Both the position numbers and the translations under genes were made by a program. 42,785 nucleotides of DNA from a virus: IMG/VR virus record IMGVR_UViG_3300044522_000440, positions 1-42,785 of that record; one strand, given 5' to 3'. This document shows, one piece after another, positions 2,137 to 10,100 of the stretch (positions are counted from its first letter, which is position 1; the number at the start of each line of letters is the position of its first letter). Below the pieces are notes generated by a model. It made no database searches. It saw nothing but the letters and a program-made list of their open reading frames with translations, and was not told the DNA's origin.

Positions 2137-2880
2137 GTGACAGCATCGTCAAAACGCATGCGAGACCTCTTCAACACGTCCCCTGTCAAACCCGACAAAA
2201 AGAAGCGCGCGCTCGAAGAGCGCCTTAACACCGTAGTGGACCCACTGGAAAAGCACCGCCGCGCCCTGACGCCACAGGAGTGGAAGTTCGTTCTGGCCCT
2301 CGTGGACGGCGAGGGAAAGCAAACGCTGAAGCAAGCGGCCATCGAGGCAGGCTACCCGGCAGCCACTGCCAACAAGATCGCCCACGAGCTCACCGATCCC
2401 CGGACCAACCCACAGGTTGTCGCTGCCATCCAGCAGTACCGGCAGGACGTCGCAGAGCGGTATGGCACGAACGTCGAGAGACACCTGCGCGACCTGCAGA
2501 TCATCCGCGACAAAGCGCTGGAGGCTGGCAACTACGGCGCCGCCGTCGCTGCAGAGTACAGGCGCGGACAGGCACTGGGGACGATCTACGTCGATCGCAA
2601 GGAGATCCGGCACGGCACCATCGACTCGATGAGCGTGGATGAGGTGCGCAGGAAGCTGGAAGAGATCAAGGCGCTGTATGGGGGCCCGCCCCCTGTCTCG
2701 ATCATCGACGTGACACCCGATGCCCTGCTAAACGCGCTGGAGGCCCCTCAGAGCTCGCAGGAGCTCGATGCCGAGCAGGGCCAGCCCGAGCTACCCCTTG
2801 AAGAAGAAAACCTGCTGGAGGAGATCAAACGTGCCGAAAGAGAGCGCGCTGTACAGCTCGCTGCGGGCCAAGCTGACTGA
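2137..2880 (+). CDS. Terminase small subunit
   Basis: A 247-residue DNA-recognition subunit of the packaging motor. Residues about 44-100 match the Terminase_2 (helix-turn-helix) family: LTPQEWKFVLAL, then QAAIEAGYPAATANKIAHEL and NPQVVAAI. A central part (ERYGTNVERHLRDLQIIRDKA) would form the oligomerisation helices. The region with IRHGTIDSMSVDEVRRKLEEI is typical of longer members, and the acidic C terminus probably contacts the large subunit. The GTG start at 2137 is preferred because AGGAG lies 7 bases upstream; an upstream in-frame TTG at 2080 lacks this. The end overlaps the nuclease gene by 50 bases. Confidence 0.88.
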   Translation: MTASSKRMRDLFNTSPVKPDKKKRALEERLNTVVDPLEKHRRALTPQEWKFVLALVDGEGKQTLKQAAIEAGYPAATANKIAHELTDPRTNPQVVAAIQQYRQDVAERYGTNVERHLRDLQIIRDKALEAGNYGAAVAAEYRRGQALGTIYVDRKEIRHGTIDSMSVDEVRRKLEEIKALYGGPPPVSIIDVTPDALLNALEAPQSSQELDAEQGQPELPLEEENLLEEIKRAERERAVQLAAGQAD

Positions 2881-3238
2881 CGTCAGCCTGAGCCGGCTGG
2901 AGACGCGCGTCGCGCTGGGCATGCCTGACTGCCTCGCTGCGCTGCCCTGTGGCCAGTGGGTGACGCTGGAGCTCAAGGTGGTGGCCACAGGGCGCAAGAT
3001 CCGCCTGAGCCCGCATCAGGTCGCCTTCCACACCCGTCACGCTCACATGCCCAGCTGGATCGTCGTGCAGTACTGGCCCCCCGGCACTGCACGCTCCCCT
3101 GACAGCATCCTGCTGCTCTATCACGGCAGGCAGGCACAGGCCCTGCTCGACACCGGCATCGACACGCCTGCTGCCCTGCGCGAGCGCTGGCGGGACGTGG
3201 ACTGGCAGGCCATGGTGACGCTTTTTGTCAGAAAGTGA
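2831..3238 (+). CDS. PD-(D/E)XK-family nuclease (VRR-NUC-like)
   Basis: A 135-residue protein with the nuclease signature in order: E24 (SRLETRVALG), the PD pair at 32-33 (GMPDCLAAL), ELK at 47-49 (WVTLELKVV) and Q63 in LSPHQVAFHTRH. This resembles VRR-NUC or Holliday-resolvase-like phage nucleases. The active site would cut DNA, possibly to resolve branches before packaging or to make the packaging end. The start is GTG at 2831 with GGAGGAG a few bases upstream, inside the end of the small terminase gene. An earlier in-frame ATG at 2768 would run further through that gene and has no ribosome site. Its last codons overlap the first operator-like dyad. Confidence 0.75.
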   Translation: MPKESALYSSLRAKLTDVSLSRLETRVALGMPDCLAALPCGQWVTLELKVVATGRKIRLSPHQVAFHTRHAHMPSWIVVQYWPPGTARSPDSILLLYHGRQAQALLDTGIDTPAALRERWRDVDWQAMVTLFVRK

Positions 3239-3389
3239 CAATTTTTGTCACCTTGGGCCAATGTTTGGTCAAAAAATGACCAACTGTTAACCAAACACAG
3301 GCCCGTGGGTTGACAGCTGATCAAAAAATGACCAACTGTTAACCAGACACAGGCCAGTTGGTTGACAGTTGATCAAAAAGTGACCAACA
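3225..3389. repeat. Operator-like dyads in a 52-base tandem repeat
   Basis: Four dyads share the form TTGRTCA-N5-TGACCAA. They start at 3225 (six-base perfect arms, TTGTCA/TGACAA), 3265 (seven-base perfect arms), 3317 and 3369 (one arm slightly altered). The last three are exactly 52 bases apart because the region is a tandem repeat: 3269-3320 and 3321-3372 match at 48 of 52 positions, and a third partial copy begins at 3373. Fixed spacer length and repeated phasing suggest sites for a dimeric DNA-binding protein. The fourth dyad covers the -35 and spacer of a promoter. Confidence 0.75.
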
Positions 3390-3398
3390 CGATATAAA
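3369..3398 (+). promoter_or_regulatory. Promoter overlapped by an operator-like dyad
   Basis: TTGATC (3369-3374), an 18-base spacer and TATAAA (3393-3398). TTGACA just upstream (3362-3367) fits a 17-base spacing less well. The dyad at 3369-3387 overlaps the -35 and spacer, so a protein bound there could block or recruit polymerase. The next gene starts almost 600 bases downstream, so the transcript would have a long leader or be a noncoding RNA. Confidence 0.5.
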
Positions 3399-3994
3399 GC
3401 GCTGTCCTTTCCCGCCCTGCGCGGCAGCCTACGTGCCCATGCAGTCTGCGCGGCCCTCCCGGACCGCCGGAAACGCTCTCTGAGGAAAACCGGGAAGGGG
3501 GCCTTGGGCAGGGCCCTCCCCCACGCTTCCGGGGCGCCTGCGCCCTCCTGCGCGGTCTGGTGGCCTTGGGCCGGCGAGCCGCTATTTCCGGTAATGTCAA
3601 TTACCGGAAATAGTGAATCCAATGAAATCAATGACTTAGCAAAATCAGGGGGGTCGGCGCGGCCTTTGTAACATCGCCGTGATCCGTGGGCCGAGGCCCG
3701 TGGCGCACCGTTAACGTTGCGTTAACGTGACCTCGGTCTGAGAAACCCCAGCAAGATCAATGACTTACGGTTGACCTCGCCGCGCGAGCGGGTCCCTTGG
3801 CCCCGATTCGATTGGCTGCCGCGATCGATCGATCGCGCGCACCCCCCGCGCCCCGCCCCGCGACGCGGCGGGCGCAGCTTTAGCCCAGTTTTACATGATT
3901 CATTGGGCCTGAAACACTTTTCGCCTTCTTGACCCTCGGGCCTTGGTCCACTATCCTGCCCCCCTGTATCACGTAAACAACAGCCCCCCCCCCT
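3399..3994. other. Noncoding region between nuclease and HNH genes
   Basis: About 600 bases with no credible gene on either strand. The GC-rich part 3405-3580 has several complementary blocks (for example GGAAGGGGG near 3491 with CCCCCACGCTTCC near 3520) and could fold as RNA. A perfect 32-base palindrome follows (3582-3613). GTTAACG occurs twice near 3710 and 3721, and ATCAATGACTTA occurs near 3628 and 3757. A run of G/C bases around 3840-3880 precedes a C tract just before the next start codon. It is a candidate packaging site or structured RNA. Confidence 0.45.
3582..3613. repeat. Perfect 32-base palindrome (14-base arms)
   Basis: CTATTTCCGGTAAT and ATTACCGGAAATAG flank a 4-base GTCA loop. 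No T tract follows on the plus strand, so a simple terminator is unlikely. It may be a protein-binding site, a packaging cleavage site, or the terminal stem of an RNA from the promoter at 3369. Confidence 0.75.
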
Positions 3995-4393
3995 ATGAAA
4001 ATTTGCTCCAACTGTAATCGCCGTGAGCGGCGGCCCAAGGGCCGTTACTGCGTGTCCTGCCATGCTGAATACATGCGCGGCTGGCGCCGTACGCACACGA
4101 TGTCGGAGGAGCAGCGTCGCAAGGACAACTGTCGTAGCTACGCTCACGTGTACCTGCGGCGCGGGAAGTTGGTGCGGGAGGGCTGTGTGTCCTGTGGCTC
4201 GGTAGAGAGCCAGATGCACCACCCTGACTATTCCAAGCCCTTGCAGGTAGTGTGGTTGTGTCGTCCCTGTCATAGGGCGTTGCACGCGCAGGAACGGAAG
4301 CCGAATGTGGCACGTGAAACATTTCCGGCTGGATTTACTCAGCGGGAGACGTTCTTTTCTCCGGCGGCCCAGAAAGGCCCCCCCTTGTTTTAA
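3995..4393 (+). CDS. HNH-type zinc protein next to large terminase
   Basis: A 132-residue protein with an N-terminal zinc ribbon (C4-x2-C7, C19-x2-C22), a basic linker, then C64-x2-C67, the pair H75-H76 (QMHHPDYSKPLQVVWLC) and C89-x2-C92 with H97. This is the pattern of phage HNH-like proteins. In many phages an HNH nuclease works with large terminase in genome cutting and packaging, and here it lies just upstream of terminase. No Asn is evident in the usual middle position, so activity is uncertain. The ATG follows a C tract without a Shine-Dalgarno sequence, so translation may be weak or start elsewhere. The last 25 residues look disordered. Confidence 0.7.
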   Translation: MKICSNCNRRERRPKGRYCVSCHAEYMRGWRRTHTMSEEQRRKDNCRSYAHVYLRRGKLVREGCVSCGSVESQMHHPDYSKPLQVVWLCRPCHRALHAQERKPNVARETFPAGFTQRETFFSPAAQKGPPLF

Positions 4394-4444
4394 AAAGCCT
4401 TTGGCCCCAAAATTTTTTGCAAATTTTTTTTCAAAGGACCCTTG

Positions 4445-5923
4445 ATGCTTGGTTCATCCCCCCACGACATTGAAACCGAACGCCTGCGCCTTGAGCTCCG
4501 TCTGGCGCTGCTTGAAGCGCAGGAGAAGGCGTGCAGTAACTTCCTGCAGTTTTCGCAGTACGTCTGGCCGGAGGCGATCCTGTCTGGGCACCACAGGAAG
4601 ATGGCGGCGGCCTTTGATCGGATTGCGGATGGGAGCCTGAAGCGGCTGATCATCAACATGCCGCCCCGGCATACCAAGTCGGAGTTTGCGTCCTACCTGT
4701 TGCCGGCGTTCATCATGGGCAAGCGGCCCACGACCAAGATCATTCAGGCGACGCACACTGGCGAGCTGGCGGTTCGGTTTGGCAGGAAGGTGAGGAACCT
4801 GATGGAGATGGACCGGTATCAGGAGTTGTTCCCTGACTCGGTGCTGCAGGCGGACAGCAAGGCGGCTGGTCGGTGGGACACGAACCACGGCGGGGAGTAC
4901 TTTGCTGTTGGCGTGGGGGGTGCGATGACGGGCCGTGGCGCGGATCTCTTGATCATTGACGACCCGCACTCGGAGCAGGACGCCCTGTCGCGGTTGGCCT
5001 TGGAGAATGCGTGGGAGTGGTACACCTCTGGCCCCCGGTCGCGACTGCAGCCGGGCGGGGCCGTAGTGATTGTGATGACCCGCTGGAACACCTCGGACCT
5101 GACGGCGCGGCTGTTGAAGGCGCAGACCAGTCACAACGCGGACAAGTGGGAGGTGATTGAGTTCCCTGCCATTTTTGACGAGGGGACGGAGAACGAGCGT
5201 CCGCTGTGGCCGTCGTTCTGGAAGTTGGAGGAGTTGAAGGCGGTGAAGGCATCGCTGTCGGTTCAGAAGTGGAACGCGATGTATCAGCAGCGTCCGACGG
5301 CGGACGAGGGGGCGATTCTGAAGCGGGAGTGGTGGAACGTCTGGGAGAAGGACTACATGCCTGAGTTGGAGTACATCATCCAGTCGTATGACACGGCGTA
5401 CTCCAAGAAGGAGACGGCGGACTATTCTGTTATCACGACGTGGGGCGTGTTTTACCCTGATATCGACTCGGGGCCCGCGATCCTGTTGGTGGATTGCCGG
5501 CGAGGGCGGTGGGACTTTCCGGAGTTGAAGCGCATTGCGAAGGACCAGTACGCGTACTGGCGCCCTGATAACGTATTGATTGAGGCGAAGGCGACGGGGG
5601 TGACCTTGCAGCAGGAGCTGCGGCGCGTGGGCATTCCTGTGACCATGTATTCGCCCGGGGGCCGTGGTGCGGGGCAGGACAAGCTCTCGCGCGTGAACGC
5701 GGTGGCGCCCATGCTGGAGTCGGGGATGGTGTGGTGTCCTGACACTGACTGGGCGGAGGAGCTGGTGGAGGAGTGCGCGTCGTTCCCGAAGGGGGACCAT
5801 GACGACATGGTGGACTCGACGACGCAGGCTTTGATGCGGTTCCGTGCTGGCAACTTTGTGTCGTTGCGGACGGATGAGTTGGACGAGCCGTCAGAGCCTG
5901 CTGTTGTTCCGGAGTATTATTGA
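4445..5923 (+). CDS. Terminase large subunit
   Basis: The 492-residue packaging motor: an ATPase that pumps DNA into the procapsid through the portal, and a nuclease that cuts the concatemer. Residues 73-80 (PPRHTKSE) form the Walker A-like loop, 166-173 (ADLLIIDD) the Walker B motif, and 211-215 (MTRWN) the coupling motif. The C-terminal RNase H-like nuclease shows D316 (SYDTAYS), E380 (VLIEAKATG) and DHDDMVD at 451-457. All key residues appear present. The start is ATG 4445 with AAAGGA six bases upstream; the TTG codon directly before it is not favoured. The length is usual for the family. Confidence 0.95.
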   Translation: MLGSSPHDIETERLRLELRLALLEAQEKACSNFLQFSQYVWPEAILSGHHRKMAAAFDRIADGSLKRLIINMPPRHTKSEFASYLLPAFIMGKRPTTKIIQATHTGELAVRFGRKVRNLMEMDRYQELFPDSVLQADSKAAGRWDTNHGGEYFAVGVGGAMTGRGADLLIIDDPHSEQDALSRLALENAWEWYTSGPRSRLQPGGAVVIVMTRWNTSDLTARLLKAQTSHNADKWEVIEFPAIFDEGTENERPLWPSFWKLEELKAVKASLSVQKWNAMYQQRPTADEGAILKREWWNVWEKDYMPELEYIIQSYDTAYSKKETADYSVITTWGVFYPDIDSGPAILLVDCRRGRWDFPELKRIAKDQYAYWRPDNVLIEAKATGVTLQQELRRVGIPVTMYSPGGRGAGQDKLSRVNAVAPMLESGMVWCPDTDWAEELVEECASFPKGDHDDMVDSTTQALMRFRAGNFVSLRTDELDEPSEPAVVPEYY

Positions 5924-5966: not shown

Positions 5967-8900
5967 GTGGCGATGAATGCACGAGAAATGCTGGCAGGGC
6001 TGCCTATGAGAGGGTATGCGGAGGGCGGTACGGTTGAGGACCCGTTGTCTGCTGGTCGTCGCCGTGCGATCGCCAACGGCAACGAGGCTGGTTGGCTGCA
6101 GAACGTAGCGGGTGTGGCCAACAAATGGCTCTCGAGCCCCGGTACTGCGGCTGAAGCGTATGACGGCATGGTGAAGTCGGGCATCAGCGTGAAGGACTTG
6201 GTGGATGCGGGGATTTCGCAGGATGCCATTGACAAGGCCTTGTCCATCCCGACTTCGGAGGCGCAGAAGCAGGTCAATGCGTTGACCGCCAAGGCCCTGA
6301 CCACCACCCTGTCGCAGAATCCGACCTTGGCCTCTGAGATAGGTGCCCGTGGAACCTCGGCCATTTACAAACAGGCCCAACAGTTTGTGGAGAACCTGCA
6401 GAAGGACGGTCTGACGGACGCCGAGCGCCAGCAGTTGCAGCAGGTGGCGACGCAGCAGGGCTGGGGTTTTGCGGACATCCGAGCGGCAGGCATTGACCCG
6501 GACATCCTGTTTAAAGCGCCTGCCGCCGCTGCTCCGGTTGTACCGCCCCCGGTTGTACCGCCCCCGGTTGTACCGCCCCCTGTCTTCCGCGACCCCGTGC
6601 CGTACACTCCTGTCACTGTGTACGACCCGGAGAAGTTCGCCCGGGAGAACGCAGGCGAGGATTTGTACAAGAAGGGGGAGGTGGCGCTGGACACGGCGTT
6701 CCGTGAGAGCGCGCCACGAACCGCGGTCCCCGGCATGCCGGGCGCGTACGAGTACACCCCTGCCGCCTCTCTTCGCCCTGCCACTGGTGCGGGCATGAGC
6801 TGGACCCCGCCTGTGGTGACCAGCCGTCCTCGGTCCTTGCTCAGTCCGACACTGCTCTCGTACACCTCGCCGTCGCAGCAGTTTGCGCAGGCACGTGCCA
6901 CGCAGGATCAGGCGCTGTTGGGCGCGTTCCGTGAATCGGGGCTCCCGCAGAACGCGAGCAACTTCAACACGTGGCGCAATCGCCTTCGCTCGGGAGAGTT
7001 TGGCAGCGGCGCCGCGTTTGACCCGGCCACGTTCCAGTCGGCGTTTGGCTCGTGGGCCTCGACGCAGCCGCCTGCGGGAGGAGCCACGGCTCAAGGATCT
7101 GGTCTGGGTTCTGTGGGAACAGGCGTCACGGGGTACTCGGAGATTGCTGGGGGTCTGCAGCCGGTTGACTTGCGCACACTGCCTCCTACTACGCTTGCAC
7201 AGGGCGGTGAGGTAAGTTCTGCACGGAGGATGCTTGAACAGGTAAAAAAGCCTGAAGGGTTTGCGGAGGGCGGGATGCCCACTGCAGACCCTCGCCCTCT
7301 CGACCCCCGTGATCCGCTGTACCGTACAGAGGAGAGGGACCGTGCAGCAGCGGCAGAGATGTTGGCCCAGCAGATGCTGGCCATCGGCAATCAGCCCGCA
7401 ACGGCGCAACTGGCTGCGCAGCGTGAAGCCGTTCCTAAGACAGAAAGTGCGTCAATGCTGCAGAACATCGTTTCTGGCGCTTCGCAGATTCCCGCAAGCA
7501 TGTACGAGTACGGCAAGGGCATTGCCCAGAGTGAGCGTCCGCTAGCTGCTTTTGGCGAGGACGTGAGCACGCTGGCCGGCGGCATGTATGAAGGCCTCAA
7601 GCAGGATCCGATAGGTTTTGGTTTGGACATGGCGCCAATAGTAGGCGAGATACGCTCTGCCTTGGAGGCCCGTGAGCTTTCCAATCTGGCCAATGAGGCA
7701 GATGCCGCTGGGGACACAGCCCTTGCAAATAACTATCGGCAGCTTGCCACCATGGCAGCCGCAGGGGCATTTCCTTTCGGAGGGATCGGGGCCCGAGGTG
7801 CCAAGCGCGCGGCTATGAGCAACATTGTTGACGTTCCTCCGGACAGTGCGCGAGCCATGTTGGACGAGCTGACGCCTGAGACAGGTGCCGTTCCTGAAGA
7901 GGGCGCCTTAACTGCCGCAGTGACACGGCCCGTGGAGCCGATGCCTGTGTCAGAGTCTGAAGAGATGTTGACGCAGCTGGATGAGATCCAAGCAGCGCCG
8001 GCAACTCCGGAAGCCCGCCTGACCACGCAGGAGAGCCGAGCCATCAATGCGAGCGTGGGAAGAAATCCAACCAAGCGGCAAGAGGCGGCTGAGAAGGCAC
8101 GTCAGTTCAAGCAGGACTACGCCACTGAGAAGGGATGGACCCCGATTGAAATCACCGGGATTAAGTACAACAAGGCGAAACGTCCTGAGATTCTTGCCAA
8201 GAAGATTTCATACAACTTCGAGAAGCCGCCAGCGGGCCTTGATCAGGACCAGTGGGCAACACAGCTTTCGGACAGGCTCTCCTCAGAGGTGAGCAACGTT
8301 GTCGATAGAGCCCAGAATGGGGATGCGGCAGCCCTTGGTATTTTGCGTCAAGCAAATTGGTATCGCAGCATGCGGGACAGACTGCGTTCTGAGTTTGGAG
8401 GTATCGGCGATGTCTTCGCGGATGTTCTAGGCACCACCAGTGCGCAGACGGGCGTAGAGCAGAACTTCAAGAACGCATCGGAGATTCTACGCAGGTTCAG
8501 TCGCGGAGAGTTCGATAACGAGCTGACTGCGTATCAGAGGCGCTTGGATCAGGGGCTATCCGTGGATGGCCAAGAGCTCACCGCCTTGCACAAGGCGGGC
8601 GAGTTCCCCTTGATCACAAACGCAGCAGGTTCGCTGTTCAATAGCAACAGCCCCGCTTCGATGGGCGCACTGCTGGATATGTTCCGCTCGGTTAAACAAG
8701 GCAGCTCTCCAAAAACGCCGAACTTCACAGGCAATCTGATAGGCCTGACAAACGAGGCCACAATTGACGTGTGGGCAGCGCGGATACTCCGTCGCCTGTC
8801 AGGGCAAGATCGCATTCCGCCTCTGGCAGAAAAGGGAGTGACTGGAAAGCATCGGGCAGGATCGACGCTCACGCAGCCTGTTGTGGGTCAGGAATTTGGG

Positions 8901-10100
8901 TTTGGCCAAGATGTTTTCCGCAGGGCCGCAGATACTATCAACCAGAGTGGCACCATCAAAAACGTGGTCCCTGAAATGGGTAATCTGGGTCCGGATGACT
9001 TACAGGCTGTTGCATGGTTCATGGAGAAAGAACGGTGGACAGAAAACGGATGGACCACCAAAGCAGGAGAAGGGGGGTCGCTTGATTTTGAAATGTCACT
9101 GGCCGGTGCCCCGAGTCAAGAGCGTGTCTACGAACTTCGTCGTGCAATCAATGCTGGATTCAAGCCGCCTGCCAAGCGCAAGACGGAAACAGACTTGCAG
9201 TATGAAGGGCGTGTTGAAGTTGCACGTAGACAATACGATGAAGCCAAGGCACGCAATCAGGCCGAGTTGACCATCATGGAAGCTCCGCTCCAGCGTTATC
9301 AGCTGGGCGTCTCTGGCGAACGCCCAGCCCGTACCATGAGCAACTATGCGCAGGCAGAACTTGCCGCACCGTTGGATGATGCGGTGAGAGACGATCCCAC
9401 GGTACTGACCTACAACCTTGCGAACACGTATGGCTCGTTTATGGGGCAGACTGAGCGTGCTTTGAACGCCGAGTTTGTGACGCGCGCCAACTTCGACCCA
9501 CAGGCTCTTGTTCGCCGATTGGTAGAGCAGGGCAAGGACTATGATCAGGATGCAGTGTTCTTCTCCAAGGTTGTTCCAAGTACCACCCCCAACGCTCGCC
9601 CCGGCGTGGAGATCTACTTCAAGGAAAGCGTCACTCCCGAACAGATGGCGAGGGCCACCGAACGGCTAAGACAGTACGGAGTTGACGGGTTTACCTACGT
9701 GACGGATATGCGCTTCGACGATCGAATCGATCGCCAGACGAGAACGGGATCTCCGGAAACAGCAGCGCTTACCGGGCTCCGGTTCCAGTACATCCCGGAG
9801 TTTGACGACTCTTTCGACCCGGCAAGGGCAGCGGAGATATATGAGCAGAAGGCTTCGTTGTTCCAAGATATCGTTTCGGATACAATGGCGGAGGGAAACG
9901 TGTCCGACGCCCGGTTAAACTTCTATGACACGCAGGTCTTTTTTAGAGACAACTACGATGAATTTCTTGGAAAAACAGCTTCAGATCGAAATCTCGAAAC
10001 GCGGGGAGAACTCCCCCGTGGCGCAAATGCTCCGCAACCAAATAATGGCCGAAAAGTCGGGGCAGACCTTGCAAAACCTTTACGTGACGGGGGCAGTTAA
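5967..10100 (+). CDS. Large multidomain phage protein, probably virion-associated
   Basis: A 1377-residue protein between large terminase and portal. The first 500 residues resemble internal or ejection proteins: Ala/Gln-rich helices, GYAEGG and GFAEGG motifs, and a proline-rich linker around residue 190-205. Residues about 540-640 contain a Gly/Ala-rich segment with MAPIVGEI. From about residue 690 a conserved block starts (NPTKRQEAAEKARQFKQDY), including VLGTTSAQTGVEQNFKNA and NLIGLTNEATIDVWAARIL; I recall similar blocks in marine phage proteins of unknown function. A later block near 1200 reads GVEIYFKESVTPEQMARA. No catalytic motif is recognised. GTG 5967 has AGAGG at a suitable distance; ATG 5973 is an alternative. 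The 3' end overlaps a small gene in another frame. Confidence 0.8.
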   Translation: MAMNAREMLAGLPMRGYAEGGTVEDPLSAGRRRAIANGNEAGWLQNVAGVANKWLSSPGTAAEAYDGMVKSGISVKDLVDAGISQDAIDKALSIPTSEAQKQVNALTAKALTTTLSQNPTLASEIGARGTSAIYKQAQQFVENLQKDGLTDAERQQLQQVATQQGWGFADIRAAGIDPDILFKAPAAAAPVVPPPVVPPPVVPPPVFRDPVPYTPVTVYDPEKFARENAGEDLYKKGEVALDTAFRESAPRTAVPGMPGAYEYTPAASLRPATGAGMSWTPPVVTSRPRSLLSPTLLSYTSPSQQFAQARATQDQALLGAFRESGLPQNASNFNTWRNRLRSGEFGSGAAFDPATFQSAFGSWASTQPPAGGATAQGSGLGSVGTGVTGYSEIAGGLQPVDLRTLPPTTLAQGGEVSSARRMLEQVKKPEGFAEGGMPTADPRPLDPRDPLYRTEERDRAAAAEMLAQQMLAIGNQPATAQLAAQREAVPKTESASMLQNIVSGASQIPASMYEYGKGIAQSERPLAAFGEDVSTLAGGMYEGLKQDPIGFGLDMAPIVGEIRSALEARELSNLANEADAAGDTALANNYRQLATMAAAGAFPFGGIGARGAKRAAMSNIVDVPPDSARAMLDELTPETGAVPEEGALTAAVTRPVEPMPVSESEEMLTQLDEIQAAPATPEARLTTQESRAINASVGRNPTKRQEAAEKARQFKQDYATEKGWTPIEITGIKYNKAKRPEILAKKISYNFEKPPAGLDQDQWATQLSDRLSSEVSNVVDRAQNGDAAALGILRQANWYRSMRDRLRSEFGGIGDVFADVLGTTSAQTGVEQNFKNASEILRRFSRGEFDNELTAYQRRLDQGLSVDGQELTALHKAGEFPLITNAAGSLFNSNSPASMGALLDMFRSVKQGSSPKTPNFTGNLIGLTNEATIDVWAARILRRLSGQDRIPPLAEKGVTGKHRAGSTLTQPVVGQEFGFGQDVFRRAADTINQSGTIKNVVPEMGNLGPDDLQAVAWFMEKERWTENGWTTKAGEGGSLDFEMSLAGAPSQERVYELRRAINAGFKPPAKRKTETDLQYEGRVEVARRQYDEAKARNQAELTIMEAPLQRYQLGVSGERPARTMSNYAQAELAAPLDDAVRDDPTVLTYNLANTYGSFMGQTERALNAEFVTRANFDPQALVRRLVEQGKDYDQDAVFFSKVVPSTTPNARPGVEIYFKESVTPEQMARATERLRQYGVDGFTYVTDMRFDDRIDRQTRTGSPETAALTGLRFQYIPEFDDSFDPARAAEIYEQKASLFQDIVSDTMAEGNVSDARLNFYDTQVFFRDNYDEFLGKTASDRNLETRGELPRGANAPQPNNGRKVGADLAKPLRDGGS
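6534..6578 (+). repeat. Three perfect 15-base repeats coding a Pro/Val linker
   Basis: The unit CCGGTTGTACCGCCC occurs three times in a row in frame and codes repeated PVVPP. It forms a stiff hinge between the helical N-terminal part of the 1377-residue protein and the next domain. Perfect copies suggest recent slippage, so copy number may vary between relatives. Confidence 0.85.

Follow-up and report, generated by a model that had tools for sequence, protein, structure and literature searches.

Phased inverted-repeat dyads over a predicted promoter upstream of a large terminase gene: a candidate operator array in a phage related to pelagiphages

The terminase locus and its dyads

The window, i.e., the whole stretch of DNA analysed here, is the 42,785-base virus record IMGVR_UViG_3300044522_000440, a fragment of a phage genome whose relatives are about 61 kb in size. 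Its nearest named relative is Phage DSL-LC04 (61.5 kb), with a TerL identity of 77%, followed by pelagiphages of the HTVC023P group at about 60% TerL identity. The genes are arranged in the order lysis-like genes, small terminase subunit (TerS), phrog_2165 ORF, noncoding region, HNH-like ORF, large terminase subunit (TerL), portal and other structural genes, while the early gene region, the expected place of a regulator, lies outside the window. A 1377-aa ORF at 5967-10100, in the interval between TerL and the portal gene, has almost no family match, and the DSL-LC04 protein at this position is annotated as PcfJ-like. The features of the locus are as follows:

2080-2880, + strand: TerS gene; phrog_51/641, with a PF03592 match below the curated cut-off; candidate rival binder of the dyads
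2768-3238, + strand: phrog_2165 ORF preceding the array, with a stop codon at which the array starts; nuclease-like on inspection
3225-3241: dyad 1, variant TTGTCA-GAAAG-TGACAA with 6-base arms, overlapping the stop of the preceding ORF
3236-3250: second dyad overlapping dyad 1, TGACAA-TTT-TTGTCA
3265-3283: dyad 2, TTGGTCA-AAAAA-TGACCAA
3269-3388: 52-base tandem repeat with dyads 2-4 (TRF: 2.3 copies, 92% matches)
3308-3344: 37-bp imperfect palindrome GGTTGACAGCTGATCA-AAAAA-TGACCAACTGTTAACC with dyad 3 as its core (13/16 arm pairs)
3317-3335: dyad 3, CTGATCA-AAAAA-TGACCAA, with one outer-base mismatch
3369-3387: dyad 4, TTGATCA-AAAAG-TGACCAA
3369-3374, + strand: putative -35, TTGATC
3393-3398, + strand: putative -10, TATAAA, 18 bases from the -35
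3399-3994, + strand: leader/noncoding region with a GC-rich segment inside
3582-3613: perfect palindrome CTATTTCCGGTAAT-N4-ATTACCGGAAATAG (CCGG palindrome) in the leader, present before TerL across the phage group
3929-3957, + strand: putative promoter of the HNH ORF, TTGACC-N17-TATCCT
3995-4393, + strand: HNH endonuclease-like ORF, which L001 lacks, separating the leader from TerL
4442-5923, + strand: TerL gene; phrog_38, E 2e-113; presumably the leading core gene of the regulated operon

The original prediction described four TTGRTCA-N5-TGACCAA dyads; four were found at 3225-3387, of which dyad 1 proved to be of the TTGTCA type with 6-base arms and dyad 3 carries one mismatch. The dyad centres lie at 3233, 3274, 3326 and 3378, giving steps of 41, 52 and 52 bases, or about 3.9, 4.95 and 4.95 helical turns. 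The exact 52-base period of the last three dyads, predicted to correspond to about five helical turns with 48 of 52 bases identical, was recovered both by TRF and by register comparison, where the identity of 48/52 is reached in registers 3269-3276 (best register). When the window was searched for TTGRTCA-N5-TGAYCAA with at most one mismatch, three matches were obtained, all at this locus, against an expectation of 0.0 from 10 first-order Markov resamplings of the window. The GC content of the dyad region is 43-45%, compared with roughly 60-70% in its neighbourhood.

Promoter, leader and neighbouring elements

Dyad 4 covers the -35 and 13 of the 18 spacer bases of the TTGATC-N18-TATAAA promoter, as had been proposed. 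Promoters were called by consensus and are predicted only; a strict promoter scan of the window did not list this site, whose match is modest, and the call is made because of the hexamers and the conservation of TATAWW in the window, L017, L001, L006 and L005. The stretch of almost 600 bases without a following gene also holds, since the first + strand ORF of 60 aa or longer after the promoter begins at 3995. An Rfam search of the array region gave nothing above the gathering score, and no consensus fold for a structured RNA 3' of the promoter emerged from a global alignment. The motif AAACYRGG, with a hairpin of variable sequence after it, occurs 5' of the CCGG palindrome in the window (about 3485-3530) and in many relatives, L137, L111, L166 and L235 among them; single hairpins after the motif gave a mixed result, and the element could be a terminator or a structured leader RNA.

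Several other elements lie near TerL in this phage group. The sequence CTATTTCCGGTAAT-N4-ATTACCGGAAATAG was found in 94 IMG/VR stretches and precedes TerL in most relatives whose TerL is 64-97% identical; AAATCAATGACTTAG often stands on one side of it, or the reverse complement of AAATCAATGACTTAG on the other. It is perhaps a recombination, packaging or termination element; the idea of a cos end was set aside, as several contigs run straight through it. Of the 59 palindrome-positive relatives, 38 carry a parS-like sequence, GTTNCACGTGNAAC, 5' of TerL, where shuffles give an expectation of 0; examples are L097, L112, L123, L133 and L156, and the distance to TerL is often about 80-95 bases. The sequence suggests that a ParB-type protein may be drawn to the packaging region; in the window just a half-site, GGCACGTGAAACAT, is present at 4305-4322. 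A small 'YPFKxMxxGDYF' family is encoded directly 5' of TerS in many relatives (L231:6218-6475, L231:5964-6221 and L306:3001-3216) and was undetected in the window.

Dyads among relatives and in databases

In the closest clade, L001 and L006 carry four and five dyads, respectively, at the same locus with an exact 20-base period, and both have TTGATC-N18-TATAAT; TTGATC-N18-TATAAW is thus kept in the window, L001 and L006 despite array periods of 52 and 20 bases. L017 has one full dyad together with TTGGTCA/TTGTCA variants before TATAAA, and also contains the dyad 1 type TTGTCA-N5-TGACAA. In L002 a re-spaced, less regular set precedes the promoter of the HNH ORF, its dyads centred on TTTTT or other sequences; L005, with a TerL identity of 95%, keeps TATAAT and has no clear dyad at the locus. 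The expectation that close relatives share the dyads at this locus is therefore largely borne out, in L001, L006 and L017, but the dyads are displaced in L002 and absent or degenerate in L005; the proposed comparison of copy number gave a range from none clear (L005) through single to as many as five (L006). Among the closest relatives the -10 is conserved, but the number of dyads, their period and their location differ. DSL-LC04 has a single exact core dyad, TGGTCAAAAAATGACCA, which is intergenic and precedes the TerS operon. About 955 bases before TerL in L007, a 20-base-period array of a different dyad, TTGTATCA-TTTT-TGATACAA, occupies the equivalent position, as though the operator specificity had been exchanged. 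In L160 (same contig as L005) and L004, an insertion interrupts the TerL gene, and its ends look intein-like (RLLTSTAVPT...VVTHN) on reading of the sequence.

Among the 53 more distant relatives, defined as those with the group-wide CCGG palindrome, 10 have a single TTGNTCA-N5-TGANCAA 5' of TerL (0.2 expected from Markov shuffles), a fraction that overstates the number of events because the loci are related rather than independent (L234, L235 and L239, for example, are close). None of the 62 relatives lacking the palindrome has the site. When the spacer was varied from 0 to 15 bases, 10 sites were found at 5 bases and at most three at any other length; over all relatives scanned, 31 sites occur in 212 kb 5' of TerL, compared with 5 in 414 kb downstream. 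Several distant relatives have a single dyad with no obvious promoter adjoining it, and many have no site, so the group as a whole can do without it. Position 4 of the left arm varies with no matching change in the right arm (TTGCTCA + TGACCAA; TTGTTCA + TGACCAA); therefore, what is kept appears to be DNA half-sites for a protein and not an RNA stem.

The relatives are mostly metagenomic fragments, with L228, L316 and L317 among those found via the motif itself. In IMG/VR, ACAGTTGRTCA-N5-TGACCAA matches only three loci (L017, L002 and L228), all 5' of the TerL of this group, and the 20-base array pattern occurs on four contigs only (L001, L006, L316 and L317). L316 and L317 have the same sequence and represent one unrelated phage, in which the array starts directly after TATAAT, before an operon whose large terminase belongs to a different family (phrog_2), and the genes behind the array lie on the other strand; the contig of L316, G021, encodes proteins matching Cro/C1-type HTH families. 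Among the genomes of 84,980 bacterial and archaeal species the 20-base array was not found, and the extended site gave four matches in unrelated bacteria that look like chance, which together favours a phage protein.

Probable operator function and alternative readings

On balance, the segment is likely to be an array of DNA operator sites at which a dimeric regulator, probably encoded by the phage, represses the leader promoter of the packaging operon. The original prediction of a cooperative operator array for a dimeric regulator from outside the window is well supported in its operator part, owing to the fixed 5-base spacing, the conserved arms, the promoter overlap, the recurrence of the sites and the L316 array abutting TATAAT, whereas the protein and its cooperativity are inferred. 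A dimeric sequence-specific regulator would bind the TTGRTCA-N5-TGAYCAA dyads, which are placed along one helical face; the dyad nearest the promoter lies over the -35 of a promoter that would read into the long leader of the TerL operon, and bound protein would most likely block RNA polymerase until the regulator is removed or diluted, i.e., repress rather than activate. The upstream dyads may raise occupancy, and intervals of about 2, 4 or 5 helical turns between dyads in the window, L001 and L006 would place dimers on one face and allow cooperative contacts. Both arrangements, dyads over the -35 in one family and an array abutting the -10 in the other, suit steric repression.

Several candidate binders were considered. 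No Cro/C1-type family is among the families listed for the early proteins of DSL-LC04 and G001. WJZ48083 of DSL-LC04, annotated as a helix-turn-helix regulator, was set aside, having no Pfam match, as was a winged-HTH pair of DSL-LC04 that occurs in no other locus compared. A small ribbon-helix-helix-like family (alignment A3) is conserved in the group with no convincing structural match and serves as a lead only; it was undetected in G021, G005, G006, G010 and the window, several of which are fragments.

The reading that survives next best, though unlikely, is that the array is all or part of a packaging-initiation (pac) site, in which TerS would bind the phased A-tract dyads and might also autoregulate transcription. 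The TerS gene lies 350 bases 5' of the array, its product matches Terminase_2 weakly, and the sites cluster between the TerS and TerL genes in the group and stand before the terminase operon in L316. It has been reported that the pac region of SPP1 has direct repeats and spans promoters, and that the TerS of SF6, related to that of SPP1, recognises bent DNA with little sequence specificity (PMC4737164). The array resembles the SPP1/SF6 pac in its repeats near terminase genes, its overlap with a predicted promoter and its A-tract DNA, but the SPP1 repeats are direct and the related TerS is of low specificity, while the dyads here are strict in both arms and 5-base spacer (PMC4737164). Moreover, an SPP1-type pac site should occur wherever TerS does; TerS is near-universal in the group, yet most relatives have no site (10/53 distant relatives have one), L005 has lost it, and the L002 array stands before the HNH ORF. 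The narrower proposal, in which the dyads form a sequence-specific TerS array, a promoter-embedded pac site that would couple packaging initiation to terminase-operon transcription with copy number tuned among sister phages, deserves still less credence.

It is quite improbable that the dyads are bound by a host transcription factor through which expression of the packaging operon would follow host physiology. The same dyads at the equivalent promoter of an unrelated phage, and the failure to find a regulator gene in the early regions of the group, would fit such a factor, but the array is absent from the 84,980 species genomes, where the extended site has only the four unrelated bacterial matches, and the FNR type, TTGAT-N4-ATCAA, has a different spacing; a host factor whose sites have diverged could still fit. 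An FNR/CRP-type box (TTGAT-N4-ATCAA or TGTGA-N6-TCACA) was itself rejected, the sites showing TTGAT-N9-ATCAA by inspection.

Replication-origin iterons or a partition site, as opposed to transcription control, are very unlikely: low-GC A-tract repeats in a noncoding region, where many relatives also have a parS-like sequence, would suit them, but most relatives have no array, its copy number and position vary with gain and loss among close relatives, the dyads track the promoter in the window, L001, L006 and L316, and the window has only half a parS-like site. It is highly improbable that the dyads work at the RNA level, forming a row of hairpins at the 3' terminus of the transcript that precedes them. 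They do start at the upstream ORF stop, and folding into 7-base stems closed by 5-base loops is conceivable, but several relatives retain the arm sequence and yet carry position 4 mismatches that disrupt the stem, the L316 array lies at an operon start, and Rfam offered nothing convincing.

The operator-array reading also finds parallels in known systems. The OR and OL regions of lambda have several palindromic sites at short spacing that overlap the promoter. The present array is similar in its multiple fixed-spacing dyads over predicted core promoter elements, with Cro/C1-type proteins in the unrelated G021, but differs in that no repressor gene or lysogeny module was found in the group and that site number differs between close relatives. 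Stoperators of the mycobacteriophage L5 type are asymmetric, oriented and scattered. They too are repeated sites of a phage regulator (putative here), but the window dyads are symmetric and local. Such stoperators are contrasted in PMC4351075 as well. The nearest published parallel found is the 17-bp dyad TGTTCGG-NNN-CCGAACA of Cluster O mycobacteriophages, dispersed over the genome in more than 30 copies, mostly off promoters (PMC4351075). Both have 7-bp inverted arms, an A/T centre in either orientation and a predicted dimeric regulator, whereas a 5-bp rather than 3-bp spacer, other arms and one promoter-linked cluster are found here (PMC4351075).

TTGRTCA-N5-TGAYCAA offers a testable cis-regulatory code for packaging-gene control in a phage group that is mostly uncultured, aquatic and related to pelagiphages, and for which no described regulator was found. 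Relatives with no copy, one copy or as many as five form a natural series that reveals operator turnover and provides a bait with which the regulator could be found.
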